Origin: an uncultured Sulfitobacter sp.
Lineage (GTDB): Bacteria > Pseudomonadota > Alphaproteobacteria > Rhodobacterales > Rhodobacteraceae
Length of the DNA stretch: 64,000 nt
Direction of reading: 5' to 3'
Assembly: GCA_947502265.1 (NCBI GenBank)
Contig: CANMZB010000013.1
Location: 1 to 64,000 of the forward strand
In this document: one piece after another, positions 13,276 through 38,268 of the stretch
Position numbering within the stretch: position 1 is the stretch's first letter
Layout of the letters: the number at the start of each line of letters is the position of its first letter
Translations under genes and position numbers: made by a program
Notes under the pieces: model-generated
What the model was told of the DNA's origin: nothing
Database searches by the model: none
Seen by the model: only the letters and a program-made list of their open reading frames with translations

Positions 13276-13749
13276 TTAGGGGCCTGACTGTGCCTTGCAC
13301 GACACAGGAAGCTGCGGCGACATCTCCAACAGTGCGGAAATCCCGCAATTGCCTTTCACCAGATCGGCCAACGTCACCATGTCCAACTCGCGATAAAACG
13401 CTTCGACGGCGCGGGCCACAAAACTCCGCAGGCGGCACACGTCCGACAGCGGACAGGTGTTGGTTTCAAGGTCAAAACACTCTGCGAACGGCACACCTGC
13501 CTCAAAGATGCGGAAAACCTCGCCGATGGTGATCTGCTCCATGGGGCGGGCAAGTTTCAACCCGCCATTGCGCCCCCTGATGGTTTTCACAAAACCGCTG
13601 GCTTGCAAAAGATTGACAACCTGTAGCAGGTGATTGACAGACGCATTGCACTTCGCGGCAATCTCGGCGGTCCGCACAATACCGCCATTATTTACGGCAC
13701 AGGCCATCAGGATACGCGAAGCGAGGTTTGTTCGGGTGGTCAAACGCAT
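13276..13749 (-). CDS. Rrf2-family regulator with NsrR/RirA-type cysteine triad
   Basis: From the ATG at 13749 the protein has 157 residues; the frame is open further upstream, but homology starts at MRLTTRTNLASR. It has a winged helix in the first 70 residues and, near 90-105, cysteines in C-x7-C-x5-C spacing (ECFDLETNTCPLSDVC), the Fe-S ligands of RirA/NsrR-type sensors. It is divergent from cydDC across about 130 bases, so iron, NO or Fe-S status may tune bd oxidase assembly. It is distinct from the nsrR at 27.2 kb. Which effector it senses is not visible. Confidence 0.85.
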   Translation of the reverse strand: MRLTTRTNLASRILMACAVNNGGIVRTAEIAAKCNASVNHLLQVVNLLQASGFVKTIRGRNGGLKLARPMEQITIGEVFRIFEAGVPFAECFDLETNTCPLSDVCRLRSFVARAVEAFYRELDMVTLADLVKGNCGISALLEMSPQLPVSCKAQSGP

Positions 13750-13786
13750 GAAGGCACCGTTATCGACTGCAATTAACGCAATATGA

Positions 13787-23857: not shown

Positions 23858-24658
23858 CTAGGCAAAGCTGATGTCGACAGAGCCGAAGCTACCGAAATCT
23901 GCGTGAATGGCGCTGCCGGAGGGGCATTCCACAGGGCGGATAAAACTGCCCGAGAGGATCACATGTCCGGCCTCGATAGCTTGGCCATACTGCGCCATGC
24001 GGCGGGCGAGCCAGACAACGCTTTCGACAGGATCGTTCAGCACGCCAGCGCCAAGGCCGGTTTCCTCGATCTCGCCGTTGCGCAACGTCAGCGCACCGAC
24101 CCAGCGCAGGTCAAAGGCATCGGGCGCGTGGCGTTCGACGCCCAGCACAACACCCGCATTGGCGGCATTGTCGCTGATGGTGTCGAACACGGTGCGGGCC
24201 TTGCCGTTTTCGGGATCGGCCCTTTGGATACGGGTGTCCAGAATTTCGATCGCGGGCGCGACAAAACCGGTCGCGTCCAGCACGTCCTGACGGGTCACAT
24301 TCTCTGCGCCGAGGGCCGATTTCATGACAAAGGCGATCTCGGTCTCGATGCGCGGCTGGATAAAGCGGCCCGCAGGAACGGTTGCGCCGGTGTCAAAGAC
24401 CATATCGTCGAACAGGATCCCGCTGTCGGGAGTGTCGATGTTCAGCGCGTATTGCATTGCTTTCGAGGTCAGCCCGATCTTCCAGCCGATCACCTTGCGT
24501 CCCTGCGCAAGCTTTTGCTCGAAGACGGCTTTTTGTACGGCATAGGCATCGTCCATTCCCATTTCAGGATGGCGCCGGGTCAATATGCCGATCTGCCGGC
24601 CGCTCTGCTCGGCTTGCAACAGGTCGGCGGCGGCGCGGACGTGATCCTGAGGGGTCAT
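23858..24658 (-). CDS. 2-oxo-hept-4-ene-dioate / 2-keto-4-pentenoate hydratase
   Basis: A 266-residue cytoplasmic enzyme of the MhpD/HpaH hydratase-decarboxylase family, which acts late in meta-cleavage of aromatics. Landmarks are GWKIGLTSKAMQ near 61, the metal-binding PRIETEIAFV near 105 and GAGVLNDPVESVVWLA near 203. The ATG at 24658 has GGAGAA 6 bases upstream and overlaps the stop of the degraded upstream gene. The other pathway genes next to it are ruined, so its present role is uncertain. HpaH is the closest guess from the FAH and ALDH neighbours. Confidence 0.8.
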   Translation of the reverse strand: MTPQDHVRAAADLLQAEQSGRQIGILTRRHPEMGMDDAYAVQKAVFEQKLAQGRKVIGWKIGLTSKAMQYALNIDTPDSGILFDDMVFDTGATVPAGRFIQPRIETEIAFVMKSALGAENVTRQDVLDATGFVAPAIEILDTRIQRADPENGKARTVFDTISDNAANAGVVLGVERHAPDAFDLRWVGALTLRNGEIEETGLGAGVLNDPVESVVWLARRMAQYGQAIEAGHVILSGSFIRPVECPSGSAIHADFGSFGSVDISFA

Positions 24659-24838
24659 TGCTTGTTCTCCACACGGCTGCACGGAACGTCGATGCCTGCC
24701 ACTTCGATCTCGACCAGATCACCGCTCACGTCCAGCAGGGTGTGGCATTGTTTGAAATCGGATGACAGGGCCACGCCCTGCATCGGTGATTGCACCGTAA
24801 AAGGACTGGTCGTTGGCGGTATAAGTTTCAAAGTGCAT
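24655..24838 (-). pseudogene. Remnant of an FAH-family (fumarylacetoacetate hydrolase-like) gene
   Basis: AAGGA and an ATG at 24838 begin MHFETYTANDQSFYGAITD, then the frame breaks. A second frame gives VALSSDFKQCHTLLDV and runs directly into SGDLVEIEVAGIDVP, which is the C-terminal strand of FAH-fold enzymes (usually GD-VEVEI-GIG). The whole catalytic middle, normally some 200 codons, is missing. The end still overlaps the hydratase ATG, so the fragment keeps its original operon position. This cannot be explained by a base-call error. Confidence 0.65.
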
Positions 24839-25013
24839 AGCTTGATCCTTGTCGGCAGCGGAGTGATAATTCAGGGCGCGATGACAGCAGAGCTTGAAGG
24901 TGTGAGGCTTTTACCCCGGTGTCAACGAATCCGGAGCCGTTTGCGAACCCGCTGCGCTGCGGAGCGTCTTGCGGTGCGGGTCTTTCAGATCCCGTTTGAC
25001 CGGTTCGGGATCG

Positions 25014-25125
25014 GGACCGGACCAAATATCCTTCCTGCGTGATGCGTATTTTTCTGGTGGCACCGGTGAACAGGGCGGGGCGGTAAAAATATCCCTCATC
25101 CCCTACCGGCATCATTGCGCCGGAT
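25014..25125 (-). pseudogene. Fragment of an aldehyde dehydrogenase gene
   Basis: The minus-strand frame reads SGAMMPVGDEGYFYRPALF, then FTGAT and RITQE. This is the region of NAD-dependent aldehyde dehydrogenases that leads into EEIFGPV. Here the next bases encode IFGPV only after one missing base (near 25031), after which the similarity ends. The 5-prime two thirds, including the catalytic Cys, are absent. With the FAH remnant and hydratase it outlines a lost hpa-like catabolic operon. Confidence 0.6.
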
Positions 25126-25412
25126 GTTACAGAACAAGCCTGTGCACAGATTTTTTGTTTCATATGATTTGCGGGTGTGATGTAATAAGGCAGATGGAGA
25201 ATGCTCTAAAGCCTGCTGTTGTGCGCAGCCATACGTCACTGGACGCTATTCAGGCCGCGAGAGCCTGTCTTTTCCGGACGGTCCTGTAAAGATATGATGG
25301 CCACGGAGTTTTTCGAGTGTCCGACAGGCAGCCGCGTTGAAACGCGCGTGATATTTGAACATTTGCCTTGCACTGCGGATAGCGCCATCTGCCAAACCTG
25401 CGTGAAAATGAT
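25126..25412. other. Gap before phnM, nothing firm
   Basis: No supported gene. A 65-codon frame (25219-25416) overlaps the phnM start but has no ribosome binding site or recognisable motif. Confidence 0.4.
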
Positions 25413-26558
25413 ATGACTGACCAGACGATCTTTGCAAATGCCCGCCTGATCCTGAACGATGAAATCATGCTTGGAACGGTGAGGATCGACAACGGCGTGA
25501 TCTCCGATATCGACAGCGGGGCAGGGGTGCCGCAAGGTGCGCTTGATCTGGGGGGAGATTACCTCGCGCCCGGTCTGGTCGAGCTTCATACCGATAACCT
25601 TGAGAGGCATTTGTCGCCACGCCCGACGGTGGACTGGCCCTACAAGGCGGCCATTCTGGCCCATGACCGGGAGTTGGCAGGAAACGGCATCACCACGGTT
25701 TTCGATGCGATCCGCGTGGGGTCTATCGTGTCAGGCAACAGTAAACGTTACGGAAAATATGCCCGCAGAATGGCCGATGAAATCCTTGCCATGCGGCGCG
25801 CAGGCCTGCTGCGGATCAGCCATCACATGCATCTCAGGGCCGAAATCTGTTGCGAGACCCTGGAGGAGGAGCTTGCCGAGTTTCTGCCGCAGGACCGGAT
25901 CGGTATTGTGTCAATGATGGATCACACCCCCGGCCAGCGTCAATTCACGGACATCTCCAAGTTCGAGACATATGTGCGTGGAAAATATGCGTTCGGTGAT
26001 CAGGAGTTTCTTGATTACATCGGTTTCCTGACCGGCCTGCAATCCGAATTGGGCGCAAAACACGAGGCCGCGACAGTGGCGGCGGCGCAAAGGCTTGGCG
26101 CAACATTGGCAAGCCATGACGATACGACGGTCAAACAGGTTGCGACCAGCCATGCGCACGGCGTCAAAGTGGCCGAGTTTCCGACCACTGTTGATGCCGC
26201 TGACGCCTGCCACGCGCATGGCATCGCCACCATCATGGGCGCGCCAAATCTGATCCGGGGCGGATCGCACTCGGGCAATGTATCCGCGTCCGAGCTGGCA
26301 TCGCGCGACCGGCTTGATATCCTGTCCTCCGACTATGTGCCTGCGGGGCTGTTGATGGCGGCGGTGCAGCTGGGTGATTTATGGGGCGATCTGGCGCGCG
26401 GCATACGCACTGTCACAGCACGGCCTGCACAGGCGGTTGGTCTGACCGATCGTGGCACAATCAGCCCCGGCCAAAGGGCGGATTTTATTCGGTTTGCAAT
26501 TGCAGACGGGACGCCGATCCTGCACGAAACATGGTCTGCGGGGCGGCGCGTCTTTTGA
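25413..26558 (+). CDS. phnM: Alpha-D-ribose 1-methylphosphonate 5-triphosphate diphosphatase (PhnM)
   Basis: A 381-residue amidohydrolase-fold protein of the carbon-phosphorus lyase pathway, releasing pyrophosphate from the 5-triphosphate intermediate. Markers are DYLAPGLVELHTDNLERHL (first metal motif, near 47-65), HHMHLRAEICCE near 137, TLASHDDTT near 231, and VTARPAQAVGLTDRG near the C-terminus. No other phn gene is within 10 kb on either side, so it is an orphan copy here. The lyase core may lie elsewhere in the genome. Confidence 0.9.
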   Translation: MTDQTIFANARLILNDEIMLGTVRIDNGVISDIDSGAGVPQGALDLGGDYLAPGLVELHTDNLERHLSPRPTVDWPYKAAILAHDRELAGNGITTVFDAIRVGSIVSGNSKRYGKYARRMADEILAMRRAGLLRISHHMHLRAEICCETLEEELAEFLPQDRIGIVSMMDHTPGQRQFTDISKFETYVRGKYAFGDQEFLDYIGFLTGLQSELGAKHEAATVAAAQRLGATLASHDDTTVKQVATSHAHGVKVAEFPTTVDAADACHAHGIATIMGAPNLIRGGSHSGNVSASELASRDRLDILSSDYVPAGLLMAAVQLGDLWGDLARGIRTVTARPAQAVGLTDRGTISPGQRADFIRFAIADGTPILHETWSAGRRVF

Positions 26559-26619
26559 CGATGACGCGGCGGGAATATCCGGCTGGTGAAGTCAAGGACC
26601 GCCGCCCGCACGGTTTTTT

Positions 26620-26931
26620 CTAGACATCTCCCGTCCCGCCGCGCGCGTCTGTCCCGCTGCGTTCGCGGGGTGCGTCGAACTGGCTACGGCCGAGAATCCG
26701 GCTGTTTTCATCAACCGTCAGGCGAAAGGCGCGACTGTTGTGAAAGAAGGTCAATCGCCAACGCCCCTCGTCCTCGTCCACACCTTTTTCGCACCGCGAG
26801 GTGATCGCACCGGACTGCATAAGGCTTTGAACCTCTGACGTAGTAAGGCCAAAGGCGTCTGCGATGATCTGCGCGTCTACGACAAAGCCGTCATCGCCAA
26901 TTTCGATTGATGTCACGACGGGTTTTTCCAA
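26620..26931 (-). CDS. DUF6522-type protein, third gene of the nsrR operon
   Basis: A 103-residue soluble protein of unknown function that I associate with DUF6522 (recall). It has a DGFVVDAQIIADAFGLT segment resembling a small helix-turn-helix around 14-45 and a beta-rich second half (GRWRLTFFHNSRAFRLTVD). It overlaps the heme protein gene by 19 bases in another frame, so it is translationally coupled to it. The NsrR operon context suggests a role in NO or peroxide stress. No cysteine pair or metal motif is obvious. Confidence 0.65.
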   Translation of the reverse strand: MEKPVVTSIEIGDDGFVVDAQIIADAFGLTTSEVQSLMQSGAITSRCEKGVDEDEGRWRLTFFHNSRAFRLTVDENSRILGRSQFDAPRERSGTDARGGTGDV

Positions 26932-27146
26932 TGGTCGTTGGCTGCGGCCACGGTCGCAAAATGCGTGGCGACGACCTGACTGACAGAGATCAACGCAGCG
27001 GCATCTTCGGCATATTCCGGACGCATACGATCGCGCGCATCCGCGTCGGGTTGAGTCAGCTTTATCGCCATGCGCGAAAGCTTTATCGCAAGGTCATAGC
27101 CTTCTTCGGGGGTTTTCGTGATCAGGGTTGGTAGCCAGGTTGTCAT
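26913..27146 (-). CDS. Hexameric tyrosine-coordinated heme protein (HTHP)
   Basis: A 77-residue protein. TWLPTLITKTPEEGYDLAIK is followed by RPEYAEDAAALISVSQVVAT and HFATVAAANDHW, matching the small heme protein crystallised from Silicibacter pomeroyi, in which Tyr coordinates heme and the hexamer shows peroxidase and catalase activity. Candidate ligand and distal residues Tyr and His are present in these motifs. AAGGAT lies 7 bases before the ATG. It is encoded 39 bases downstream of nsrR and overlaps the DUF6522 gene. Identification is from memory of the family, with good motif agreement. Confidence 0.75.
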   Translation of the reverse strand: MTTWLPTLITKTPEEGYDLAIKLSRMAIKLTQPDADARDRMRPEYAEDAAALISVSQVVATHFATVAAANDHWKNPS

Positions 27147-27185
27147 GTTTTTATCCTTTATTGGCCCCGTTAAGAGGGAGGGGTG

Positions 27186-27605
27186 TCAGGCTTCTGTCGT
27201 AATAGACGGAAGCGCAACGTCGGCCAGCGTGGAGGTGTCGAGATGCGCGAGGAACGCCGCTTCGGCGGCGCGCAAACGGGATTTGAGGCGGCACCGGCCG
27301 TCAAGCGAACAGGTATTCGTTGCGCTCTGGAAGCATTCCACCAATGGCTGGTCTTCTTCGAGCAGGCGCACCACATCGCCCAGACGAATATTTTGCGGTG
27401 TCCGTGCCAATATTGCACCGCCACCGCTTCCGCGGCGCGTTTCCACGATCCCGCCACGCGACAGGCGTTGCATGATTTTGCTAAGATGATTGCGCGACAG
27501 GCCAAGTTCTCCGGCCAGATCAGCCGTAGAATAGGCGCGGTCCGGGGCGCTTGCCATGCGCATCAGCATGCGCAATCCATAATCGGTAAAAGAGGTCAGG
27601 CGCAC
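27186..27605 (-). CDS. nsrR: NO-sensing Rrf2 repressor NsrR
   Basis: A 139-residue regulator starting at GTG 27605 (RLTSFTDYGLRMLMRMAS is the exact NsrR N-terminus), with GGAAG 7 bases upstream. The winged helix covers about 25-70. The Fe-S ligands are in ECFQSATNTCSLDGRC (C-x7-C-x5-C, about 90-105). NO destroys the cluster and releases the repressor. It leads the HTHP-DUF6522 operon and is divergent from a haemoglobin gene, with a palindrome in the shared promoter, consistent with autorepression and control of both arms. Confidence 0.88.
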   Translation of the reverse strand: MRLTSFTDYGLRMLMRMASAPDRAYSTADLAGELGLSRNHLSKIMQRLSRGGIVETRRGSGGGAILARTPQNIRLGDVVRLLEEDQPLVECFQSATNTCSLDGRCRLKSRLRAAEAAFLAHLDTSTLADVALPSITTEA

Positions 27606-27628
27606 AATAATCTTCCGTTCATTGAATG

Positions 27629-27643
27629 GGTATTTACAATACC
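27629..27643. promoter_or_regulatory. Probable NsrR operator
   Basis: GGTATTTACAATACC is a perfect inverted repeat (GGTATT/AATACC, 3-base spacer) 24 bases upstream of the nsrR GTG and 51 bases upstream of the haemoglobin ATG. Its place between two NO-response transcripts makes it the best operator candidate; binding is inferred. Confidence 0.6.
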
Positions 27644-27693
27644 AATTAACAGGTCTACGCAGTGTTGCAACATAATTATTGCAGGACGCCACA

Positions 27694-28152
27694 ATGGCCG
27701 AAACGCAGACAAACCACCCGCGCATCATTTCCGCCCGCCCCGAGATGACACGGGCGCTCATGGATCGCACCGGTCTTGACCCGGCGATTCTGACCGGCCT
27801 TGTGCATCGCTTTTATGACCAAATCCGTGCCGATGCTGTTTTGGGACCGATCTTTGACAGCCACATCGACGACTGGCCACAGCATCTGGACCGGATGGTG
27901 TCGTTCTGGTCTTCGGTGGCGTTGATGACCGGATCGTATCACGGCGCGCCGGTGCCCGCGCATGCGCAACTACCGGTGACATGGGTGCATTTCGAACGGT
28001 GGCTGGCGCTGTTTCGCGCCACCGCCCGCGAGGTTTGCTCGCCTGCGGGGGCTGATCATGTCATCGGGCGCGCCGAACGGATTGCGCGTTCGCTGTACAT
28101 GACAATCGAGGACACGGCCCGCAAGGTCGGCGCCGCAAGGATGCCGCAATGA
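27694..28152 (+). CDS. Group III truncated haemoglobin
   Basis: A 152-residue globin from the ATG at 27694. Typical group III features are FYDQIRADAVLGPIFD in the B-C region, DRMVSFWSSVALMTGSYHG, and the proximal-side H-x-x-F-x-x-W-L stretch in HFERWLALFRATAREV. Group III globins have very high ligand affinity and are linked to NO and low-oxygen metabolism. It is the first gene of the NnrS/NnrU arm, divergent from nsrR. Confidence 0.88.
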   Translation: MAETQTNHPRIISARPEMTRALMDRTGLDPAILTGLVHRFYDQIRADAVLGPIFDSHIDDWPQHLDRMVSFWSSVALMTGSYHGAPVPAHAQLPVTWVHFERWLALFRATAREVCSPAGADHVIGRAERIARSLYMTIEDTARKVGAARMPQ

Positions 28153-28201
28153 CTGATACAGCCCGCCTTCAGTATTTCACCGTGATAACAGGGGGATGAC
28201 A

Positions 28202-28897
28202 ATGTCCGATCCAGATGAAACCGGGCGCTATGCCTCGCCTCCCTGCCTCGCAGGAGAGATCGCGCCGGACTATTTCGATCCGCTGGCGGTAGACCCCCAA
28301 CAGGCGCATGACGTGGCACGTTGGCGGCACGCAGAACGCACACGCCTGCGCTCCGAGCGGCAGGCGTTAAGGGTGGATGAGCGGGCAGCGGTCGGGACCG
28401 CGCTTGGCGCGCATCTGCGTGCGCTGTTGTCAGCGCGCTTCGATGACGCGCGGGGCAAAGTGTTTGCGGCCTACTGGCCGATCAAGGGCGAGCCGGACCT
28501 TCGGCCCCTGATGTCCGAGCTGCACGGCGCGGGCGTCACGGTCTGCCTGCCGCTGGTCGAACAGAAGGCAGCGCCGCTTGTCTTTCGCCGCTGGACGCCG
28601 CAAACGCGGATGGTGCGGGGCGACTGGAACATTCCCGTCCCGCCCCCCGAGGCGGAAGTCCTCACGCCCGACTTTACGCTGGCGCCGCTGGTCGGGTGGG
28701 ATGCTCTTGGCTACCGGCTTGGATATGGCGGCGGGTATTTTGACCGGACGCTGGCTAGGCTTGAGCCAAAGCCCGTAGCCATCGGGGTCGGGTTCCAATC
28801 CGCGCGGCTTGCGACGATATTTCCACAACCCCACGATATCCCGCTTGATGTCATTGTGACCGAAGCGGGCGTCCAGTTTCACTTGGAGGCGACATGA
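28202..28897 (+). CDS. 5-formyltetrahydrofolate cyclo-ligase family protein
   Basis: A 231-residue protein with a cyclo-ligase fold: KVFAAYWPIKGEPDL, the ATP-loop-like VGWDALGYRLGYGGGYFDRTL near 160-180, and the C-terminal DIPLDVIVTE. It has an N-terminal extension of about 45 residues (GRYASPPCLAGEI) not found in housekeeping YgfA. ATG at 28202 has GGGGG 6 bases upstream; the frame is also open from 28196. It overlaps nnrS by 4 bases. Its presence in the NO cluster suggests a specialised paralogue acting on a one-carbon or nitrosated substrate rather than general folate salvage. Confidence 0.85.
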   Translation: MSDPDETGRYASPPCLAGEIAPDYFDPLAVDPQQAHDVARWRHAERTRLRSERQALRVDERAAVGTALGAHLRALLSARFDDARGKVFAAYWPIKGEPDLRPLMSELHGAGVTVCLPLVEQKAAPLVFRRWTPQTRMVRGDWNIPVPPPEAEVLTPDFTLAPLVGWDALGYRLGYGGGYFDRTLARLEPKPVAIGVGFQSARLATIFPQPHDIPLDVIVTEAGVQFHLEAT

Positions 28898-30105
28898 CAA
28901 CGACGGCAGAACAGATGCGCGCGTGGCGCGGTCCCGCAATCTTGACCTACGGGTTCCGCCCGTTCTTTTTCGGCGCTGCGGTATGGGCGGCGTTTGCAAT
29001 GGCGCTCTGGGTGCCGATGCTGTCGGGTGCGTTAACGTTACCAACAGCATTTGACCCCGTGTCATGGCATGCCCACGAGTTCCTTTTTGGCTACCTTACT
29101 GCTGTTGTCGCGGGCTTTTTGCTGACCGCGGTGCCGAACTGGACCGGACGTTTGCCGATTGTCGGCTGGTCGCTTGGCGCGCTCTTTGCGTTGTGGGTGG
29201 CGGGACGCATCGTTGTGGCGGTTTCGGTGGTCCTGCCGCCGTTTGCGGTGGCGCTGGTGGACCTCGCCTTTCCTGTGGCCGTGGGACTGGTAATTGCGCG
29301 CGAAATCATTGCGGGCAAAAACTGGCGTAACCTTATCGTGCTGGGCATGCTGGCTGTGTTCACGATCGGCAATGTGGTGTTTCACTTCGAGGCCGCAAGC
29401 GGGGCTTATCCTGCGCAGGGCTACGGGCTGCGCCTTGGCCTTGGCGCGGGGGTGATGATGATCGGGGTGATCGGCGGGCGCGTTGTGCCGTCCTTTACGC
29501 GCAACTGGCTGGTCAAACGCGGCAGCGGGCGTCTACCGACCCCGCCAATGCAGCGGTTCGACAAATCGGCGCTGGGAGTGCTGTTGGCAGCCTTGTTGCT
29601 GTGGGTCTTGATGCCCGCCCATCCGGTGAGCGGCGCGGCACTTTTGCTGGCGGCCCTTTTGCACGGTATCCGGTTGGCACGCTGGGCAGGATACCGGACC
29701 GGATCCGAACCGTTGGTAACCGTCCTGCACATCGCCTATGCGTTTGTCCCGCTGGGCGCGCTGGTAACCGGAGCCGAAATCCTCTGGCCCGGCAGTTTTG
29801 GCGTGGCGGGGGCGCAACACCTGTGGATGGCCGGAGCTGTCGGGCTGATGACATTGGCCGTCATGACCCGCGCCACGCTTGGTCATACCGGACAGCCCCT
29901 TACGGCAGGGCCTGCGACGGTTGGCATCTATGTGGCCTTCGGGGTCGCGGTTCTTGCACGGGTTTGTGCAGGGCTGTGGCCGTCCGAGGCGGCGTGGCTG
30001 CATATGGTTGCAGGTCTTGGCTGGATCGTGGCCTTTGGCGGGTTTTCTGTGGTGTATGGCTCTTTGTTGCTGCGATTGCCGGCGGGCAAGCGGCGGGCAG
30101 GATAG
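28894..30105 (+). CDS. nnrS: NnrS family membrane protein
   Basis: A 403-residue protein with about 12 helices. The start ILTYGFRPFFFGAAVWAAFA and the HAHEFLFGYLTAVVAGFLLTAV, SFTRNW and RATLGHTG motifs are NnrS signatures, including conserved His residues thought to bind heme and copper. NnrS relieves NO stress under anaerobic conditions in denitrifiers and pathogens. It is coupled upstream to the cyclo-ligase-like gene and followed by nnrU after 9 bases. Confidence 0.9.
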   Translation: MTTTAEQMRAWRGPAILTYGFRPFFFGAAVWAAFAMALWVPMLSGALTLPTAFDPVSWHAHEFLFGYLTAVVAGFLLTAVPNWTGRLPIVGWSLGALFALWVAGRIVVAVSVVLPPFAVALVDLAFPVAVGLVIAREIIAGKNWRNLIVLGMLAVFTIGNVVFHFEAASGAYPAQGYGLRLGLGAGVMMIGVIGGRVVPSFTRNWLVKRGSGRLPTPPMQRFDKSALGVLLAALLLWVLMPAHPVSGAALLLAALLHGIRLARWAGYRTGSEPLVTVLHIAYAFVPLGALVTGAEILWPGSFGVAGAQHLWMAGAVGLMTLAVMTRATLGHTGQPLTAGPATVGIYVAFGVAVLARVCAGLWPSEAAWLHMVAGLGWIVAFGGFSVVYGSLLLRLPAGKRRAG

Positions 30106-30114
30106 GGGAGCGCT

Positions 30115-30783
30115 GTGGGCTGGTTTGAGTTCGCGTTTGCCTGGGTCGTTTTCTTTCTGACCCATTCGGTGCCGCTGCGGCCCCCGCTGCGCCCGTGGGT
30201 GCAGGGGCGGCTGGGGCAGCGTGGCTTTACAATGGTTTATTCGGCGTTGTCGCTGGCTGTGCTTGTCTGGCTGATCGGCGCTGCGGGGCGCGCGCCGGTT
30301 GTGTCGCTTTGGGAGTGGGCCGCGTGGCAGCGGTTTGTACCTTTGGCCGTTATGCTGCCAGTCTGCCTGATCCTTGCATATGGCATCGGACGGCCAAACC
30401 CGTTTTCCTTTGGCGGGGCGCATAACGGGCGCTTTGATCCGGCCCGGCCCGGCATCGTGCGGTTTACGCGCCATCCGTTGCTTGTGGCTATGGCGCTTTG
30501 GGCGGCGGCGCATGTCGTGGCCAACGGGGATGTCGCGCATGTGCTGCTGTTCGGGGTGTTCGCAGGGTTCGCCGCGCTGGGGGGGCGTCTTGTTGACCGG
30601 CGGCGCCAACGCGATCTGGGGGCAGAGTGGCAACGTCTACAGGCCGCCGTTGCGGCAGGGCCTGCGCGCATCAGACCGGCATCATGGCGCGGTGCCGTGG
30701 CGCGAATGGTGGCAGGTATCGCCCTTTATGCCGGATTGATCTGGCTGCACCCTGTGGTATTCGGCGTGAGCCCGCTTTGGTGA
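30115..30783 (+). CDS. nnrU: NnrU family membrane protein
   Basis: A 222-residue protein with about six helices, starting at GTG with GGGGAG just upstream. NGRFDPARPGIVRFTRHP near 110-125 is the NnrU hallmark. The fold resembles isoprenylcysteine methyltransferase-like membrane proteins. In Rhodobacter NnrU is needed for nitrite and NO metabolism though its chemistry is unknown. It ends the plus-strand arm and is convergent with narR. Confidence 0.88.
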   Translation: MGWFEFAFAWVVFFLTHSVPLRPPLRPWVQGRLGQRGFTMVYSALSLAVLVWLIGAAGRAPVVSLWEWAAWQRFVPLAVMLPVCLILAYGIGRPNPFSFGGAHNGRFDPARPGIVRFTRHPLLVAMALWAAAHVVANGDVAHVLLFGVFAGFAALGGRLVDRRRQRDLGAEWQRLQAAVAAGPARIRPASWRGAVARMVAGIALYAGLIWLHPVVFGVSPLW

Positions 30784-30833
30784 GCCCGCTATCCGCTTCG
30801 CCCTTGTTGCACGATTGTCCAAAGGTCCGGCAT

Positions 30834-31529
30834 TTACGCCGAATAATCGTCGATGAGCGGGTTCGGCTTGGCAAACCGGATCAGATCTTCGGGATTGCTA
30901 ATGGTGATGCGCGTTCCCGATACTTTGACGCTATAAGGCTCAAGCCCTCTGAAGGCACGGCTCAGGTTTTCGGGGGTCATACCCAAAAAGGACGCCAGCC
31001 GTCGTTTTTCCATGGTCAGGACAAATTCGGCGGCTCCGGTTCGTTTTTGTTGACGCAACAGGTAATTCGCCAAGCGCTCAAGCGATGTGCGCAGCTTCAG
31101 ATCCTTGGTGTTTTTCACAACAGAGCGGTAGCATTGTGCAAGTTCGGAAACGATCGCCTGTGCAAAGGCGGCGTCGGCAGCAAACACCTTTCTGACGTCT
31201 TGCGAGGGAATGAGGGCAATGCGGCTTTTCTCCAGCGTTCTGGCGGACATCAGATAGGGCAGATCCCGCACCGTCGCGGCCAGAATGAACGTCGATACCG
31301 GCCTGACAGTTGCCATGCTGGTTTCCCGGCCGTTCCACGATGAATACAAGTCCACAGAGCCTGACAGAACAACATGCAAGAAATCGGGTGGCTCCTCTTC
31401 ATGAGCCAGCACGATGCGGGGCGGGAAATTCTGGACATAGGCGCCGCGCATGATTGCTTCGAAATGTTTTAGGTCCATGTTCGCAAACAACGCGAGGTTG
31501 CGGATATCAGTGTGGTACGAGTTGGTCAT
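30834..31529 (-). CDS. narR: Crp/Fnr-family regulator, NarR-like
   Basis: A 231-residue protein with an N-terminal cyclic-nucleotide-type beta roll (about 15-125), a dimerisation helix and a C-terminal winged helix whose recognition helix is MTPENLSRAFRGLE (about 185-198). It has one cysteine only, so it lacks the N-terminal Fe-S ligands of FNR. Paracoccus NarR, also cluster-less and next to narK, activates nar genes in response to nitrate or nitrite. Gene order is the main reason for the name; DNR/NnrR-type NO sensors are the alternative. Two FNR-type boxes lie in the 255-base gap to narK. Confidence 0.78.
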   Translation of the reverse strand: MTNSYHTDIRNLALFANMDLKHFEAIMRGAYVQNFPPRIVLAHEEEPPDFLHVVLSGSVDLYSSWNGRETSMATVRPVSTFILAATVRDLPYLMSARTLEKSRIALIPSQDVRKVFAADAAFAQAIVSELAQCYRSVVKNTKDLKLRTSLERLANYLLRQQKRTGAAEFVLTMEKRRLASFLGMTPENLSRAFRGLEPYSVKVSGTRITISNPEDLIRFAKPNPLIDDYSA

Positions 31530-31574
31530 TTTCTGTCAACTGCTCTCATTGTCTGGGTGCATTTGAATTGTGGC

Positions 31575-31588
31575 TTGATAATTATCAA
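31575..31588. promoter_or_regulatory. FNR/NarR-type box near narR
   Basis: TTGATAATTATCAA is a perfect 14-base palindrome whose near edge is 45 bases upstream of the narR start. It could serve autoregulation of narR or FNR control of it. Confidence 0.65.
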
Positions 31589-31687
31589 TTGTCCAGTTGA
31601 TTTCTGCGGAATTGAACTTGATCCGTCGCTGCGATAAAATTGATAAATGTTTGTAAGATACTAATTTCATTGGATTATTAGTATACT

Positions 31688-31701
31688 TTGATCCAGATCA
31701 A
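31688..31701. promoter_or_regulatory. FNR/NarR-type box of the narK-narGHJI promoter
   Basis: TTGATCCAGATCAA is a perfect palindrome 83 bases before the narK ATG. If it sits at -41.5, transcription starts near 31736, leaving a leader of about 50 bases with TTAGGAGA before the ATG. Confidence 0.7.
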
Positions 31702-31784
31702 CAAGCAAAATCGCGATCTCCTGCACGTCTGTTTCCGAACCCGTATCGGGTCTGTCTCATTCACAGACGTTAGGAGAAACAAAC

Positions 31785-34514
31785 ATGGACAGTGCCGGAA
31801 CCGTCCGAAAGGACGATCAGAACCGCGCTCTGGGGCTTAGCACCGTTGCCTTTACGGCCTGCTTTGCAGTCTGGACGATATTTTCCATCATCGGTGTGGG
31901 GATCAAAGATGAGCTGGGCCTCAACGAAGCGCAGTTCGGCCTTTTGATTGCGACACCTATTCTGACAGGCTCTGTTACACGTCTGTTTCTGGGAGTCTGG
32001 ACCGAAAAATACGGCGGGCGTCTTGTCTTTACGGGGCAAATGCTTCTCACCGCCATGGCAACCTGGGCGCTGACCTTCGCCTCGACCTATGCGATGTATC
32101 TTGTCGCAGCTCTTGGCATCGGCCTTGCGGGCGGTTCCTTTATCATCGGCGTCGCTTATGTTTCGCGTTTTTATGACGCGGGCCGTCAGGGTACGGCTCT
32201 TGGCATTTTCGGTGCCGGTAATGTCGGCGCGGCGGTGACCAAATTCGCGGCTCCCTTCGTGATGGTCGCTTATGGCTGGGAAGGTGTGGCGCATGTCTGG
32301 GCAATCGGGCTTGCGATTATGGCAGTCGTATTCTTCGTGTTTGCCAAGGATGACCCTGAACTGGTTGCGCGCCGCAAATCCGGCGTCAAAGCACCAAGTC
32401 TGGCCCAGCAATTCGCGCCTCTCAAAAACCTTCAGGTCTGGCGCTTTTCGCTCTATTATTTCTTTGTCTTCGGGGCTTTCGTCGCCCTTGCACTCTGGAC
32501 GCCTCACTATCTGATCGACGTTTACGGTCTTGATGTGCGTACGGCTGGTATGGCCGCCGCGGCGTTCTCGCTTTCGGCTTCGTTGTTTCGCGCATATGGC
32601 GGGGTGCTGTCTGACAAGTTCGGGGCACGTTCGGTCATGTACTGGACCTTCGGTTTCAGCCTCGTTCTGTTGTTCATGCTGTCCTATCCGCCAACCGAAT
32701 ATGTGATCAACAGCAAGAACGGACCGATCACTTTTTCCACCGAAATGGACGTTTTGCCCTTTGTTATCACGTTGTTTGTTCTGGGTTTCTTTATGAGCCT
32801 CGGCAAGGCGGCGGTGTTCAAGCATATTCCGGTTTATTATCCACAGCACGTCGGCGCGGTTGGTGGCCTTGTTGGTATGATTGGCGGTCTTGGCGGTTTC
32901 ATTCTGCCGATCACCTTCGGTTTCCTGTTGGAACTGACCGGCATCTACACAAGCTGTTTTGCTCTGCTGTTCCTTGTGGTGGCGATTTCTCTGGGCTGGA
33001 TGCACCTTTCGATACGTTCGATGGAGCAGGCGGCATATGGGTCGGAACTGGACGCGCTTCCCGAACTTCCCGAAATGCAGGAAATTCACTCGCCTGAACG
33101 CACGGCCATGCCGCGCACCCTGAGCGAGTGGGAGCCCGAGGACGAGGCATTCTGGGTCGAAAAAGGACGCGCGGTTGCCCGCCGCAACCTGTGGATCTCG
33201 ATCCCTGCGCTGCTGCTGGCTTTCTCGGTCTGGATGGTCTGGTCCATGGTTGTGGCGCGGTTGCCCGCAATCGGTTTCGGCTTCACCTCGTCACAACTGT
33301 TCTGGCTGGCCGCTTTGCCGGGTCTGTCGGGTGCCACATTGCGCATCTTCTACAGTTTCATGGTGCCGATCTTTGGCGGCAGGCTCTGGACAACGCTCTC
33401 CACGGCTTCGCTTTTGCTGCCGGCCATCGGCATCGGTTATGCGGTACAAAACCCTGAAACGCCCTACCTCATCTTCCTGACTTTGGCGTTGCTGTGTGGT
33501 CTCGGGGGCGGTAACTTTGCCTCTTCCATGGCCAACATCGCCTATTTCTATCCCAAAGCAGAAAAGGGCAATGCGCTGGCGCTGAACGCCGGATTGGGGA
33601 ACCTCGGTGTCTCTGTCATGCAGTTCCTCGTGCCAATCGTCATCACGGCGGGTGTCTTCGGGGCCATGGGCGGTGCGCCGGTCACTCTGGACGACGGCAG
33701 CCAGCTCTGGATGCAGAACGCCGGCTTTATCTGGGTGCCCTTCATCCTCGTGGCGACTGTCGCGGCATGGCTTGGCATGAACGATATCGCCGACGCCAAA
33801 GCCAGCTTCCGCGATCAGGCGGTCATCTTCAGCCGGTTCCACAACTGGGTGATGTGCGTGCTCTATACCGGCACCTTCGGTAGCTTCATCGGGTATTCGG
33901 CGGGCTTCCCGTTGCTGACGCGGCTGATGTTCCCCGAAGTGAACGCGTTGCAATATGTATTCCTCGGCCCGCTTGTTGGCGCGCTCAGCCGTGCAGGCAC
34001 GGGTTGGATCAGTGACCGTTTCGGCGGTGCGCGCGTTACCTTCTGGACCTTCCTCGGCATGATCATCGCGGTCTTCGGGGTAATCAGCTTCCTGCCGTCA
34101 AACGGGGCCGGTGGCAGCTTCCTGGGCTTCTTCGTCTGCTTCATGGCGCTGTTCCTTCTGACCGGTATCGGCAACGCCTCAACCTTCCAGATGATCCCGG
34201 CGATCATGGGCCGCGAGATTCCGCGCCTGATGCCGGAACTGGATGCTGTTGCCAGCCGCAAGCAGGGCGAACGTGAAAGCGCTGCGATCATCGCCTTCAC
34301 CTCGGCCATTGCCGCTTACGGTGCCTTTTTCATCCCGAAGGCTTACGGCACCTCGATCGCGATGACCGGCTCCCCGGTCGGCGCGCTCTGGGGCTTCCTT
34401 GGCTTCTACGCGATCTGCGTCGCGCTGACCTGGGTCTACTACACCCGTCCGGGTGGGCTTCTCCATGACATTGAACGTGGTCGCGGCGCTGCCGTTGCCC
34501 AACCCGCTGAATAA
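31785..34514 (+). CDS. narK: Fused nitrate/nitrite transporter NarK1-NarK2
   Basis: A 909-residue protein made of two complete 12-helix major facilitator units (about 15-420 and 465-890) joined by a charged linker. Each carries a nitrate-signature glycine segment: GAGNVGAAVTKF in the first and GLGNLGVSVMQF in the second. In Paracoccus the equivalent fusion combines NarK1 (proton-linked nitrate uptake to start respiration) with NarK2 (nitrate/nitrite exchange for steady state). It precedes narG by 13 bases, so transporter and enzyme are co-expressed. Confidence 0.92.
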   Translation: MDSAGTVRKDDQNRALGLSTVAFTACFAVWTIFSIIGVGIKDELGLNEAQFGLLIATPILTGSVTRLFLGVWTEKYGGRLVFTGQMLLTAMATWALTFASTYAMYLVAALGIGLAGGSFIIGVAYVSRFYDAGRQGTALGIFGAGNVGAAVTKFAAPFVMVAYGWEGVAHVWAIGLAIMAVVFFVFAKDDPELVARRKSGVKAPSLAQQFAPLKNLQVWRFSLYYFFVFGAFVALALWTPHYLIDVYGLDVRTAGMAAAAFSLSASLFRAYGGVLSDKFGARSVMYWTFGFSLVLLFMLSYPPTEYVINSKNGPITFSTEMDVLPFVITLFVLGFFMSLGKAAVFKHIPVYYPQHVGAVGGLVGMIGGLGGFILPITFGFLLELTGIYTSCFALLFLVVAISLGWMHLSIRSMEQAAYGSELDALPELPEMQEIHSPERTAMPRTLSEWEPEDEAFWVEKGRAVARRNLWISIPALLLAFSVWMVWSMVVARLPAIGFGFTSSQLFWLAALPGLSGATLRIFYSFMVPIFGGRLWTTLSTASLLLPAIGIGYAVQNPETPYLIFLTLALLCGLGGGNFASSMANIAYFYPKAEKGNALALNAGLGNLGVSVMQFLVPIVITAGVFGAMGGAPVTLDDGSQLWMQNAGFIWVPFILVATVAAWLGMNDIADAKASFRDQAVIFSRFHNWVMCVLYTGTFGSFIGYSAGFPLLTRLMFPEVNALQYVFLGPLVGALSRAGTGWISDRFGGARVTFWTFLGMIIAVFGVISFLPSNGAGGSFLGFFVCFMALFLLTGIGNASTFQMIPAIMGREIPRLMPELDAVASRKQGERESAAIIAFTSAIAAYGAFFIPKAYGTSIAMTGSPVGALWGFLGFYAICVALTWVYYTRPGGLLHDIERGRGAAVAQPAE

Positions 34515-34527
34515 GAAAGGAAACGAT

Positions 34528-37500
34528 ATGAGTCATCTGCTCGATAGATTGAACTTCCTCCAGTCGAAAGAACTGGAGCAGTTCTCGAACGGCCACGGTC
34601 AGGTTACCCGCGAGAACCGCGATTGGGAGGAGACGTACCGCAACCGCTGGCGGCACGATAAAATCGTGCGCTCGACCCATGGGGTGAACTGCACCGGGTC
34701 GTGTAGCTGGAAGATCTACGTCAAATCCGGGATCGTTACATGGGAAACGCAGCAAACCGACTATCCGCGCACACGTCCCGATCTGCCAAACCATGAACCG
34801 CGCGGCTGTGCGCGCGGCGCAAGTTATAGCTGGTATCTGTATTCCGCGAACCGGGTGAAAAACCCGTTGGTGCGCGGACGTCTGATGAGGGTCTGGCGCA
34901 ACCTGCGCGAAACGCTGTCGCCAATCGAGGCATGGACCAAGCTGCAAGCCGATCCGATCCTGCGCGCCTCATATGTCGAGACACGCGGCAAGGGCGGTTT
35001 CGTGCGCGCCACATGGGACGAGGCGACTGAAATCACCGCCGCTGCGAACGCCTATACCGCCAAAACCTACGGGCCTGACCGCGTTTTCGGGTTCTCGCCG
35101 ATCCCTGCGATGTCGATGGTCAGCTATGCCGCGGGCTCGCGCTATCTGTCGCTGATGGGTGGCGTGTGCATGTCGTTCTACGACTGGTATTGCGACCTGC
35201 CGCCTGCGTCGCCCATGACATGGGGCGAACAGACCGACGTGCCGGAATCTGCCGATTGGTACAACTCGGGCTATCTGCTTTTGTGGGGCTCGAACGTGCC
35301 GCAGACCCGCACGCCTGATGCGCACTTCTACACTGAAGCGCGTTATAAAGGCACCAAATCCGCCGTTATTTGCCCGGACTACTCGGAGGCGGCGAAATTT
35401 GGCGATGTCTGGCTGAATGCGCGCCAAGGGACGGACGCGGCGCTGGCGATGGCCTTTGGGCACGTAATCCTGCGCGAATACCATCTGGACCGCCAAACCG
35501 AGTATTTCGAGGATTACACCCGTAAATACTCTGACTTACCGATGCTGGTAAAGCTGGATGAAAAGGACGGCCAGCTTGTGCCGGGCCGCTTCCTGCGCGC
35601 TGACGATCTGGATGGTAAACTGGGTGAAGACAACAATCCCGAATGGAAAACCGTTGCGTTCGACGAGGTGTCGAACGGGCTGGTCGCGCCCAACGGCTCG
35701 GTCGGTTATCGCTGGGGTGAAGATGGCGAATGGAACCTTGAAGAAAGGGCTGGGCAAACCGATACGCGTCTGAAGTTGACGATGGTTCTGGAAGAAGATC
35801 ACGATGAAGTTGTTGGTGTCGACTTCCCGTATTTCGGCGGTCAGACTTTTGGCCAGTTCACCACCGATGCCGATCATCCAGATGTCCTGACGCGCAACAT
35901 TCCGATCAAAAGGGTCGAGACAGCCGAAGGCACCATCGCGGTCGCCACGGTGTTCGATCTGTTCTGCGCCAACTACGGCCTTGATCGGGGTCTGGGCGGT
36001 GATTGGGTCACATCCGATTTTGCCGACGACATGCCCGGCACACCCGCATGGGCTGCAAAGATCACCGGCGTTTCCGCCGACAAGATCATTCACGTCGCGC
36101 GTGAATTTGCATCGAACGCGGAAAAAACCAACGGCAAGTCGATGGTCATCATGGGGGCCGGTATCAACCACTGGTATCACATGGACATGAACTATCGCGG
36201 TATCATCAACATGTTGGTGATGTGCGGTTGCATCGGGCAATCGGGGGGCGGTTGGTCGCACTATGTGGGGCAGGAAAAGCTGCGTCCGCAGACCGGCTGG
36301 CAGCCGCTGGCCTTCGCGCTGGACTGGAGCCGCCCGCCGCGCCACATGAACGCGACCAGCGCGTGGTACGCCCACACCGACCAGTGGCGCTACGAGACGC
36401 TGGAAGCGGATGAGATCCTGTCACCGACAGCACCCGCAGGCGATTGGGACATCGGCCTGATCGACTATAACATCCGCGCCGAGCGCATGGGCTGGTTGCC
36501 ATCGGCACCCCAGTTCAAGACCAACCCGTTCGACGTCGCCAAGGCGGCAAAGGCGGCGGGAAAGGAAATCCCGGCTTATGTCGCGGATAACCTGAAATCG
36601 GGTGATCTGGAGTTGTCGTGCGAAGACCCTGACAACCCTGCCAACTGGCCGCGCAACCTGTTTGTGTGGCGCTCCAACCTTTTGGGGTCGTCGGGCAAAG
36701 GGCATGAATACTTCCTCAAGCACCTGCTGGGTACTGACAATGGCGTCATGGGCAAGGATCTGGGCGAGGAAGGCAAGCAACTGCCCAAAGAGGCCAAGTG
36801 GCACAAGGAAGCGCCGCGCGGCAAGCTGGACCTGCTGGTGACCATTGACTTCCGGATGAGCACAACGTGCGTCTATTCCGACATCGTTCTGCCAACCGCA
36901 AGCTGGTACGAAAAAGACGACATGAACACGTCGGACATGCACCCGTTCATCCACCCGCTGCAAGCGGCGGTTGATCCTGCCTATGAAAGCAAATCCGACT
37001 GGGAAATCTTCAAGGCGATTGCCAAGAAGTTCCAGGAGATCACACCGGGCTATCTGGAGAAGGAAACCGATATTGTCGCGCTGCCGATCCTGCACGACAC
37101 CCCGTCCGAGATTGCGCAAGATCAGGTGAAGGACTGGAAAAAAGGCGAATGCGACCTTATTCCCGGCAAGACCGCGCCGTCTTTTGTGACGGTAGAGCGT
37201 GATTATACCGCGATCTATGACCGCTTTACCGCGCTTGGCCCGCTTTTGGACAAGCTGGGAAATGGCGGAAAGGGGATCAATTGGGACACCCAAGCCGAGA
37301 TCGACAACCTGTCGGAGCTGAATGGTGTGCATCTGGACGGCGCTGCCGCCGGACGCCCCAAGATCGACACAGCAATTGATGCCTGCGAAGTCATCCTGAT
37401 GCTGGCGCCCGAAACCAATGGCGAGGTTGCGGTCAAGGCGTGGGAGGCGCTTGAGAAAGCCACCGGTCGCGCACATGCGCATCTGGCCGAAGGTGAGCAT

Positions 37501-38264
37501 CACAACAAGATCCGGTTCAGGGACATCGCAGCACAGCCGCGCAAGATCATCTCTAGCCCCACGTGGTCGGGGATCGAATCCGAGAAGGTCAGCTATAACG
37601 CGGGCTATACCAACGTTCACGAACTGATCCCGTGGCGCACCCTGACGGGCCGCCAGCAGCTGTATCAGGATCACCTGTGGATGCGCGCATTCGGTGAAGG
37701 CTTTATGTCCTACCGGCCTCCGATCGACGTCAAATCCGTCACCAAAGCGGTGCAGGACGCCGGCGACACGCTTGTGCTTAACTTCATCACGCCGCACCAG
37801 AAATGGGGCATCCACTCTACCTATACCGACAACCTGTTGATGCTCACGCTCAACCGGGGCGGTCCTGTAGTGTGGATCTCCGAAGTGGACGCAAAATCGG
37901 CGGGTATTGTCGATAACGACTGGATCGAGCTGTACAATATCAACGGGGCGTTGACGGCGCGGGCGGTTGTTTCCCAGCGGATCAAGGAAGGCACGACCTT
38001 TATGTATCACGCGCAGGAAAAAATCATCAATACACCGGGGTCGCAGAAGACGGGTAACCGCGGCGGTATCCACAACTCGGTCACGCGCACGGTTTTGAAG
38101 CCGACACATATGATCGGTGCCTACGCCCAGCAATCTTACGGGTTCAACTATTACGGCACCGTTGGATCAAACCGCGACGAATTCGTCGTTGTCAGAAAAA
38201 TGAACAAAGTCGACTGGCTTGATGCCGAGAAGGCTTGGGAAGCACCCGTAAAGGAGACATCGGC

Positions 38265-38268
<4 letters not shown>
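34528..38268 (+). CDS. narG: Respiratory nitrate reductase alpha subunit
   Basis: A 1246-residue molybdopterin (bis-MGD) catalytic subunit on the cytoplasmic face, reducing nitrate to nitrite. The ATG at 34528 has AAAGGAAA upstream; the frame is open further 5-prime within narK. The FS0 cluster region has HGVNCTGSCSWKIYVKSG (His and Cys ligands, about residues 50-67), and the Mo-ligand Asp region is YNSGYLLLWGSNVPQTRTPD (about 245-264). Length matches NarG (about 1245). Its stop overlaps the narH start. Confidence 0.95.

Follow-up and report, generated by a model that had tools for sequence, protein, structure and literature searches.

Genes of the locus

The window, the whole stretch of 64,000 nucleotides of Sulfitobacter sp. 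DNA that was analysed, carries two divergent gene sets, an nsrR-HTHP-DUF6522 arm and a truncated haemoglobin III-cyclo-ligase-NnrS-NnrU arm, next to genes of nitrate respiration:

26620..26916, minus strand: DUF6522 protein, most likely 98 aa from the GTG at 26914-26916 (103 aa with the TTG at 26931); PF20132, 2.6e-36
26913..27146, minus strand: HTHP, hexameric tyrosine-coordinated haem protein, 77 aa; PF11534, 9.7e-39
27186..27605, minus strand: nsrR-type Rrf2 repressor, likely GTG start; best solved match NsrR
27625..27648, no strand: NsrR-type box separating the divergent transcripts; inverted repeat GGTATT-N3-AATACC at 27629-27643
27694..28152, plus strand: group III truncated haemoglobin; PF01152; 2ig3, 4e-13
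28196..28897, plus strand: 5-formyltetrahydrofolate cyclo-ligase-like protein; PF01812; TIGR02727
28894..30105, plus strand: NnrS; PF05940, 361 bits
30115..30783, plus strand: NnrU; PF07298, 172 bits
30834..31529, minus strand: FtrB-type Crp/Fnr regulator; NF006901, 324 bits (cut-off 211)
31785..34514, plus strand: two-domain NarK nitrate/nitrite transporter; TIGR00886, two stretches
34453-38268, after NarK: nitrate reductase alpha subunit; Nitr_red_alph_N and Molybdopterin matches

All genes named in the initial annotation are present, as judged by profile matches for DUF6522, HTHP, Rrf2/NsrR, globin, cyclo-ligase, NnrS and NnrU. The DUF6522 protein scored 123.7 bits with PF20132 (curated cut-off 25), and HTHP matched PF11534 over its full length (positions 1-72 of 72) with 132 bits (cut-off 25). 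The cyclo-ligase-like protein gave 106 bits with PF01812 and 143 bits with the NCBIfam model TIGR02727, above the cut-off of 84.9. The globin reached 23.8 bits with the Bac_globin profile (cut-off 21), and among solved structures it was closest to group III (2ig3), the next match having an E-value of 7e-4. The FtrB-type regulator is a recurrent neighbour by synteny (loci L088, L093 and L164). Rfam searches at gathering thresholds over positions 24000-35000 gave no match.

The 19-base overlap originally proposed for the HTHP and DUF6522 genes requires a TTG start at 26931, and most likely has to be shortened to 4 bases (GTGA). In 36 of 39 relatives with adjacent genes, an in-frame ATG or GTG at the HTHP stop codon leaves the two genes overlapping by 4 bases (many also have the TTG), and the window GTG at 26914-26916 occupies the same position. 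Because this overlap is available in so many relatives, the GTG was chosen as the most likely start of the window DUF6522. For nsrR, the GTG at 27603-27605 is the likely start.

The NsrR-type regulator and its box

The regulator belongs to the Rrf2 family (PF02082, 122 bits). When solved structures were ranked against it, NsrR came first (5n07, 84 bits; variant 5n08, 72 bits), and the next other protein reached 44 bits. The ligands of the NsrR cluster are three Cys and an N-terminal Asp, and Asp8 and the three Cys of the regulator all align with 5n07. Since the score with the NCBIfam NsrR equivalog NF008240 was below its cut-off (112 vs 182 bits), the protein is called NsrR-type here. The RirA model gave 98 bits, though below its cut-off, and DUF6522 has links to Fe-S clusters (see below), which would fit an iron or Fe-S regulator of the RirA or IscR type in an iron-homeostasis unit. 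We regard this as very improbable: IscR reached at most 35 bits against the 84 of solved NsrR, Asp8 and the Cys residues line up with NsrR, the gene neighbours are NO genes, and the box is similar to the published NsrR motif.

The palindrome predicted to be shared by the two arms was found as a 24-bp box (27625-27648) with the core GGTATTTACAATACC at 27629-27643. Among the matches listed for the 4.55-Mb genome, the window copy is the sole zero-mismatch occurrence of GGTATTNNNAATACC; with up to two mismatches there are 111 places, compared with 71 for the backward control. A matrix was built from 69 distinct nsrR upstream regions of other loci (window left out), 63 of which matched the seed consensus at at least 19 of 24 positions. 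It detected one site only in the window, of 42.6 bits; of 20 mononucleotide shuffles a single one got as far as 8.2 bits, the rest staying below 6. The same genome has boxes upstream of a flavin reductase gene (contig C15, 36.1 bits) and 1.3 kb upstream of ccoN (contig C10, 32.9 bits).

NsrR-like boxes also precede some HTHP genes that have no close nsrR next to them. Among the culturable strains with the unit are Thioclava nitratireducens and Pseudorhodobacter ferrugineus, the latter with the box present and nsrR not next to it. Among 45 loci lacking an nsrR of at least 60% identity (three duplicates and an HTHP relic of the window's own genome included), 11 have a box of at least 18 bits within 600 bp upstream of HTHP, where about 0.07 would be expected by chance (2.39 Mb contain 6 such sites off module genes). 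Four of the 11 (L128, L149, L174 and L175) have nearby an Rrf2 relative of lower identity (46-52%), and in the other seven none was found with the queries used. At the level of sequence, a conserved palindromic box upstream of the putative target genes, as required of a regulon, is present.

The window unit is like the NsrR regulons of beta- and gamma-proteobacteria (PMC1274295) in its Rrf2-type repressor, its palindromic box and the targets nnrS and dnrN/ytfE. That paper (Rodionov 2005) reports an NsrR orthologue in no alpha-proteobacterium but R. capsulatus E1F1 and nowhere mentions cbb3; in the available part, neither HTHP nor DUF6522 was met as a target. According to the same part, nnrS of Rhodobacter sphaeroides is likewise under an NO-responsive regulator of Rhodobacterales, NnrR. 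The NnrR regulon, however, uses a Crp/Fnr-type activator and a different box, whereas the window has an Rrf2-type repressor. The accessible parts of PMC9409073 and PMC5398030 do not describe the window unit.

Genomic context of HTHP

The 98 distinct HTHP loci compared are mostly close relatives of the window HTHP; the 80 loci drawn from genome_contigs were the best 80 of 564 relatives of the query, and the query's clade is therefore over-represented. The possibility raised beforehand, that HTHP genes usually lie away from NsrR targets, proved wrong in this clade, where nsrR is no more than 10 kb away in 57 of the 98 loci, and right for HTHP as a whole, which is not bound to NsrR: the class and phylum samples show a linked nsrR at 1 of 13 loci. 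An nsrR, DUF2189/cbb3 operon or NO gene is present in 70 of the 98 loci, and DUF6522 directly adjoins HTHP in 52. The tested NO genes are absent from 28 loci (4 of them near a contig end), of which 7 have a box upstream of HTHP and 21 lack the box too. Neighbour clustering for unlinked HTHP genes brought out no shared alternative context among the clusters listed. The commonest arrangement is nsrR-ccoNOQP-DUF2189-ccoS-HTHP-DUF6522, and the window has a compact form. Paracoccus has ytfE-HTHP beside nsrR-DUF6522, and Rrf2, hmpA and catalase are near HTHP in Polymorphobacter and Hymenobacter; both fit the NO reading.

The anticipated co-occurrence was observed in 198 genomes, with phylogeny ignored: DUF6522 is present in 18 of 23 HTHP genomes vs 23 of 175 others (p 2e-10). 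Strict-core genomes contained HTHP in 9 of 15 cases vs 14 of 183 others (p 3e-6) and DUF6522 in 15 of 15 vs 26 of 183 (p 5e-12), and the strict core is missing genome-wide from 14 of the 23 HTHP genomes. The genes, the box and their conserved linkage are directly visible in the sequences. Because of the synteny, the box and the linkage counts, the predicted membership of HTHP and DUF6522 in the NsrR regulon is well supported in the window's family. The NO-regulon reading put forward at the outset is likewise well supported by conserved synteny, NsrR-like box and gene co-occurrence.

The DUF2189/cbb3 operon occurs in 33 of the 57 nsrR-linked HTHP loci, HTHP directly follows ccoS in Thioclava with a 26-base overlap, and among the 9 genomes carrying the closest DUF2189 type (at least 59% identity) 7 have HTHP, vs 16 of 189 others. 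These links would be consistent with HTHP serving as a haem reservoir or chaperone that helps the second, NsrR-linked cbb3 oxidase to mature. Such a role appears unlikely, as no DUF2189 was seen within 10 kb in 24 of the 57 loci (some at contig ends), the closest DUF2189 type is missing from 16 of the 23 HTHP genomes, the window genome has elsewhere a cbb3 operon with a decayed HTHP beside it, and some box-linked HTHP forms have signal-peptide-like N-termini. In many relatives the second cbb3 oxidase (with DUF2189) is apparently under NsrR, which bears on the O2 respiration of denitrifiers amid NO; in the open literature no paper linking DUF2189 with cbb3 was found.

Of 26 plasmid HTHP records 21 were viewed, and in 9 of these the flanks shown (4-10 kb) contain an Rrf2 gene. 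Additional to these is the megaplasmid of Ruegeria (Silicibacter) pomeroyi, whose HTHP (2oyy) is 68% identical to the window HTHP by tblastn, with Tyr45 and Arg25 kept, and has an uncharacterised protein on one side and a redoxin on the other; unlike in the window, the Rrf2 gene, adjoining cbb3 genes, is 9 kb away.

In several lineages HTHP has neighbours of the peroxide type. An OhrR-type regulator adjoins it in L202 (solved OhrR, 4e-28), MarR-family relatives stand beside it in L072 and L079, and two of the 13 broader-sample loci, L268 and L270, have OhrR-like genes. The redoxin downstream of HTHP in R. pomeroyi is of the AhpC/TSA type, L264 has a redoxin homologue, and the catalases of Polymorphobacter and Hymenobacter are of this kind too. 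The loci with OhrR-type genes recall OhrR-controlled peroxide-resistance units, but no gene of the OhrR type was seen next to the window HTHP. The OhrR-type and redoxin neighbours in other lineages point to peroxide-like HTHP substrates. With the MarR-family relatives, the catalases and the in vitro reduction of peroxide by HTHP (available part of PMC4813847), they would suit a general H2O2 or organic-peroxide peroxidase recruited by NsrR, with reactive nitrogen not its substrate. This we consider possible but rather doubtful, as in the window's family HTHP is linked to NO genes by both boxes and synteny. A general control of HTHP by MarR was rejected: three MarR queries run on 97 distinct HTHP loci (window left out) and 13 plasmid regions yielded a close, divergently placed relative in L072, L079 and L202 alone, weak matches of about 30% in L057, L064 and L163 being ignored. 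A different MarR-family gene lies 1.3 kb from the R. pomeroyi HTHP.

Putative functions of HTHP and DUF6522

In alignment A1 (n = 15) Tyr45 is the sole invariant Tyr of HTHP, and Arg25 and Arg42 are invariant; all are kept in the window (residue numbers are those of the alignment). The only convincing solved relative is 2oyy (7e-31), and no relative was found in the viral contigs scanned. The haem-ligand Tyr and distal Arg types of HTHP, and its low specific activity of 3 units/mg, are described in the available part of PMC4813847. The protein has a solved structure and known in vitro activities, and its role is still unsettled; in the open literature no assay of HTHP with peroxynitrite was met and, judging by titles, no HTHP paper is about NO.

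We think it about evenly balanced whether the locus is, as a whole, an NO-inducible, NsrR-repressed nitrosative-stress regulon beside nitrate-respiration genes, including an HTHP peroxidase and an Fe-S role of DUF6522. We infer that the window NsrR binds the box and senses NO: damage of its Fe-S cluster by NO would make it leave the palindrome, and both transcripts would start. One arm would yield the group III haemoglobin, the cyclo-ligase, NnrS and NnrU, the other NsrR, HTHP and DUF6522, the latter probably translationally coupled. Boxes of the same type are present elsewhere in the genome, upstream of a second cbb3 oxidase operon and of the flavin reductase gene. HTHP itself is most likely a soluble, NsrR-induced haem peroxidase with Tyr as haem ligand and a distal Arg; it would clear peroxynitrite or peroxides, its presumed substrates, arising where NO meets oxygen or superoxide. 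Sharing an NO-type repressor with globins and NnrS, HTHP might alternatively bind or oxidise NO or act as a denitrosylase replacing Hmp; this is quite improbable, as the group III haemoglobin of the same divergon is the more obvious NO binder and weak NO binding is expected of a ferric haem with a Tyr ligand. The conserved regulator, box and neighbours make the question of the HTHP role a simple genetic test.

The suggested partnership of DUF6522 with HTHP gained weak support: the two co-occur as given above, but HTHP is lacking in 23 of the 41 genomes with DUF6522, in several of these DUF6522 directly follows nsrR, and in some genomes DUF6522 domains are fused to Nfu Fe-S scaffolds/carriers. 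The frequent occurrence without HTHP and the Nfu fusions therefore favour a part in Fe-S repair over a partnership reserved for HTHP, and DUF6522 most likely would aid the delivery or repair of Fe-S clusters following NO damage. No paper on DUF6522 was found in the open literature, and this is a first lead for the family. The best match in a fold search with a DUF6522 model (pLDDT 78.5) had an E-value of 0.031; over the 50 rows listed, TM did not exceed 0.39 when normalised by the query and rose to 0.50 when normalised by the target (very short targets), and on account of these low scores no fold family was assigned. A short match to tape-measure proteins, below cut-offs, was dismissed. A wider proposal can be made tentatively, with its combined claims somewhat unlikely to hold together: HTHP would be a haem enzyme dedicated to the removal of peroxynitrite, which the NsrR regulons of alpha-proteobacteria recruited on more than one occasion, in a main clade that is cytoplasmic and in a distant one that has signal-peptide-like members. 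It would act together with a second cbb3 oxidase induced by NO, and DUF6522, as the Nfu fusion suggests, would be a new Fe-S repair factor. DUF6522 was also found tail to tail with ric.

Regulator, genes and NsrR-type box of the window

The seven genes of the proposed NO module were found where the initial annotation had placed them, each matching its family in profile searches. Among solved proteins the regulator is nearest to NsrR (5n07, 84 bits vs 44 for the next non-NsrR protein). Its Asp8 and each of its three cysteines are matched in the alignment with 5n07; because the cut-off of the NCBIfam equivalog NF008240 was not reached, it is called 'NsrR-type' here. By comparison with solved structures the globin is nearest to a group III truncated haemoglobin. 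The 19-base overlap of HTHP and DUF6522 depends on a TTG start and is most likely one of 4 bases: of the 39 relatives with adjacent genes, 36 possess a start codon giving a 4-base overlap, and at this position the window carries GTG.

To define the box, upstream regions of nsrR genes (identity at least 60%) were collected from 74 loci fetched for HTHP or DUF6522, leaving 69 distinct regions once the window was excluded. In 63 of these, at least 19 of the 24 positions agree with the seed TAATAGGTATTGTAAATACCTATT, and in six (L094, L097, L111, L166, L194 and L140) 16-18 do; in some of the six the site is perhaps misplaced. With the matrix built without the window, the window site scored 42.6 bits; one of 20 mononucleotide-shuffled versions of the window got to 8.2 bits. 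Boxes were also detected at DUF6522 genes without adjacent nsrR (L086, 42.2; L099, 40.1; L092, 25.0 bits).

Among the matches listed, the zero-mismatch box core occurs once in the window's own genome. Within this genome the matrix was applied to the fetched stretches, where it predicted boxes on two further contigs, C15 (36.1 bits) and C10 (32.9 bits). On C15 the gene downstream of the box encodes a flavin reductase, which might serve the truncated haemoglobin as its reductase; on the far side of the box is a DUF488-like gene, recognised by eye. Small ORFs lie between the C10 box and ccoN of a cbb3-DUF2189-ccoS operon, behind which a truncated HTHP was found.

Predicted boxes elsewhere in the window's genome
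L208 (C15): box at 1497, 36.1 bits; FAD/NAD flavin reductase, 1653-2312
L081 (C10): truncated HTHP relic, 9963-10250; box 1.3 kb upstream of the operon's ccoN

CcoN of the C10 operon is 81% identical to Thioclava CcoN, the genome's other CcoN 53%.

The window has a second Rrf2 gene:
13276-13752, minus strand: Rrf2 gene sharing the three-Cys pattern of the NsrR-type regulator but lacking Asp8
No box was found at this gene with the matrix. It is divergent from two cydDC-like ABC genes followed by cytochrome bd, and may place the bd oxidase under redox or NO control.

HTHP and DUF6522 in the Rhodobacteraceae

In 198 genomes of the window's family (sample one), HTHP occurred in 23 and DUF6522 in 41; 18 had both, directly adjacent by coordinates in 12. 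The strict core GGTATTNTAAATACC was present in 15 genomes and the backward control pattern in 3. All 15 strict-core genomes had DUF6522 and nine had HTHP; the core was absent from 14 HTHP genomes. Fisher values for this sample ignore phylogeny.

For sample two, genome_contigs yielded 564 HTHP relatives, of which the best 80 were taken. Together with the window the two samples gave 105 HTHP loci, reduced to 98 by removal of seven duplicates; the decayed L081 copy was left out. DUF6522 was directly beside HTHP in 52 of the 98, and nsrR (at least 60% identity) was within 10 kb in 57. In 33 of these 57, DUF2189 of the cbb3 operon was also found, an arrangement in which HTHP could be a cbb3 chaperone; this idea is weakened by the other 24 nsrR-linked loci, which lack DUF2189 within 10 kb. 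Counting nsrR, DUF2189 or an NO-set gene (trHb, NnrS, NnrU, hemerythrin, YtfE, nitronate monooxygenase), 70 of 98 loci were positive. Seven of the remaining 28 have a box at most 600 bp upstream of HTHP (L076, L077, L128, L174, L175, L190, L204), and L128, L174 and L175 also a diverged Rrf2 gene (46-50%) nearby.

The most frequent first arm is nsrR-ccoN-ccoO-ccoQ-ccoP-small gene-DUF2189-ccoS-HTHP-DUF6522, and the divergent second arm trHbIII-hemerythrin-CMD-DUF488-nitronate monooxygenase-cyclo-ligase-NnrS, genes of either being absent in some loci. The window arrangement is a compact form of this unit. As judged from gene order and boxes, HTHP and DUF6522 very probably belong to an NsrR-type regulon in this family.

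NsrR regulons as such are already known, and later databases may list alpha-proteobacterial ones. No placement of HTHP, DUF6522 and the cbb3 operon in an NsrR regulon was found in the open literature searched. The available text of Rodionov 2005 (PMC1274295) describes NsrR regulons as nearly absent from alpha-proteobacteria.

DUF6522 and iron-sulphur proteins

DUF6522 is more widespread in the family than HTHP and often directly follows nsrR without HTHP (L082, L088, L093 and others). In two genomes (G125, G062) a single protein consists of Nfu_N and NifU domains, DUF6522 and about 130-140 further residues. Positions of fusion proteins:
L107, 9529-10812: Nfu_N-NifU-DUF6522 fusion
L110, 9510-10763: Nfu_N-NifU-DUF6522 fusion
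The G080 translation has the same architecture. The gene after the G125 fusion encodes a NUBPL/Mrp-type NTPase, and an NTPase also neighbours DUF6522 in G140 and G183. At L075 a separate DUF6522 gene adjoins an Nfu gene and an NTPase, and in Paracoccus kondratievae DUF6522 and ric are tail to tail. A fold search with the AlphaFold2 model (moderate, 78.5) gave no convincing structural relative. The Nfu fusions, the NTPase, Nfu and ric neighbours and the occurrence without HTHP favour a putative Fe-S role for DUF6522.

HTHP beyond the main arrangement

In Paracoccus versutus and P. denitrificans, ytfE and then HTHP face nsrR-DUF6522, and in Paracoccus sp. TOH HTHP faces Rrf2-DUF6522. The P. versutus protein, L075 and the box-linked L076 and L077 branch outside the main clade of the HTHP tree and are separated from it by unlinked HTHPs; because the tree has few columns and long branches, the number of origins of the linkage is uncertain. 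An NsrR-type box is upstream of HTHP in L076 and L077, and none was found in the L078 stretch scanned. These three HTHP forms have signal-peptide-like N-termini, as judged by eye. The order is hmpA, DUF1971, trHbIII, Rrf2, AraC, catalase, HTHP in Polymorphobacter, and hmpA, Rrf2, small gene, catalase, hypothetical gene, HTHP, protoglobin in Hymenobacter (Bacteroidota); Asp at position 8 is present in the Polymorphobacter Rrf2 protein and absent from that of Hymenobacter.

The class sample had HTHP in 6 of its 385 genomes and the phylum sample in 9 of 398, giving 13 loci outside the window's genome. The tie between HTHP and NsrR holds in the family (57/98 loci) but not in these samples (1/13), the sole nsrR locus, L266, also having the box and DUF6522. 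YtfE homologues are within 4 kb of HTHP at L260 and L262; OhrR-like genes occur at L268 and L270 (one genus), the latter also with a globin; a hypothetical gene of about 250 aa known from R. pomeroyi is present at L264, with a redoxin, and at L267. In six of the 13 none of the query genes was near HTHP. Since peroxide chemistry of HTHP is in print (available text of PMC4813847), its neighbours elsewhere include OhrR, catalase and redoxin, and the setting here is NO, its probable substrate is peroxynitrite, or peroxides that arise where NO and oxygen are both present.

A divergent OhrR-like or MarR-family regulator adjoins HTHP at L202, L072, L079, L268 and L270; that of L202 matches a solved OhrR at 4e-28. 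HTHP is directly preceded by the hypothetical ~250-aa gene in R. pomeroyi (L117), two other genomes (L264, L267) and Hymenobacter (L245); the R. pomeroyi protein had no Pfam match.

Flanks of 4-10 kb were inspected in 21 of 26 plasmid HTHP records, the unannotated L246 by tblastn only. Nine have an Rrf2 gene in the inspected stretch, and R. pomeroyi, in addition, has one 9 kb away. A further record, from Marinovum, keeps the trHb-DnrN-cyclo-ligase-NnrS arm, separated from HTHP by a transposase; the remaining ten have neither Rrf2 nor this arm. On the conjugative E. coli plasmid CP057135.1 (L119), HTHP is beside a DUF1471 gene and a gene for a haem-binding protein.
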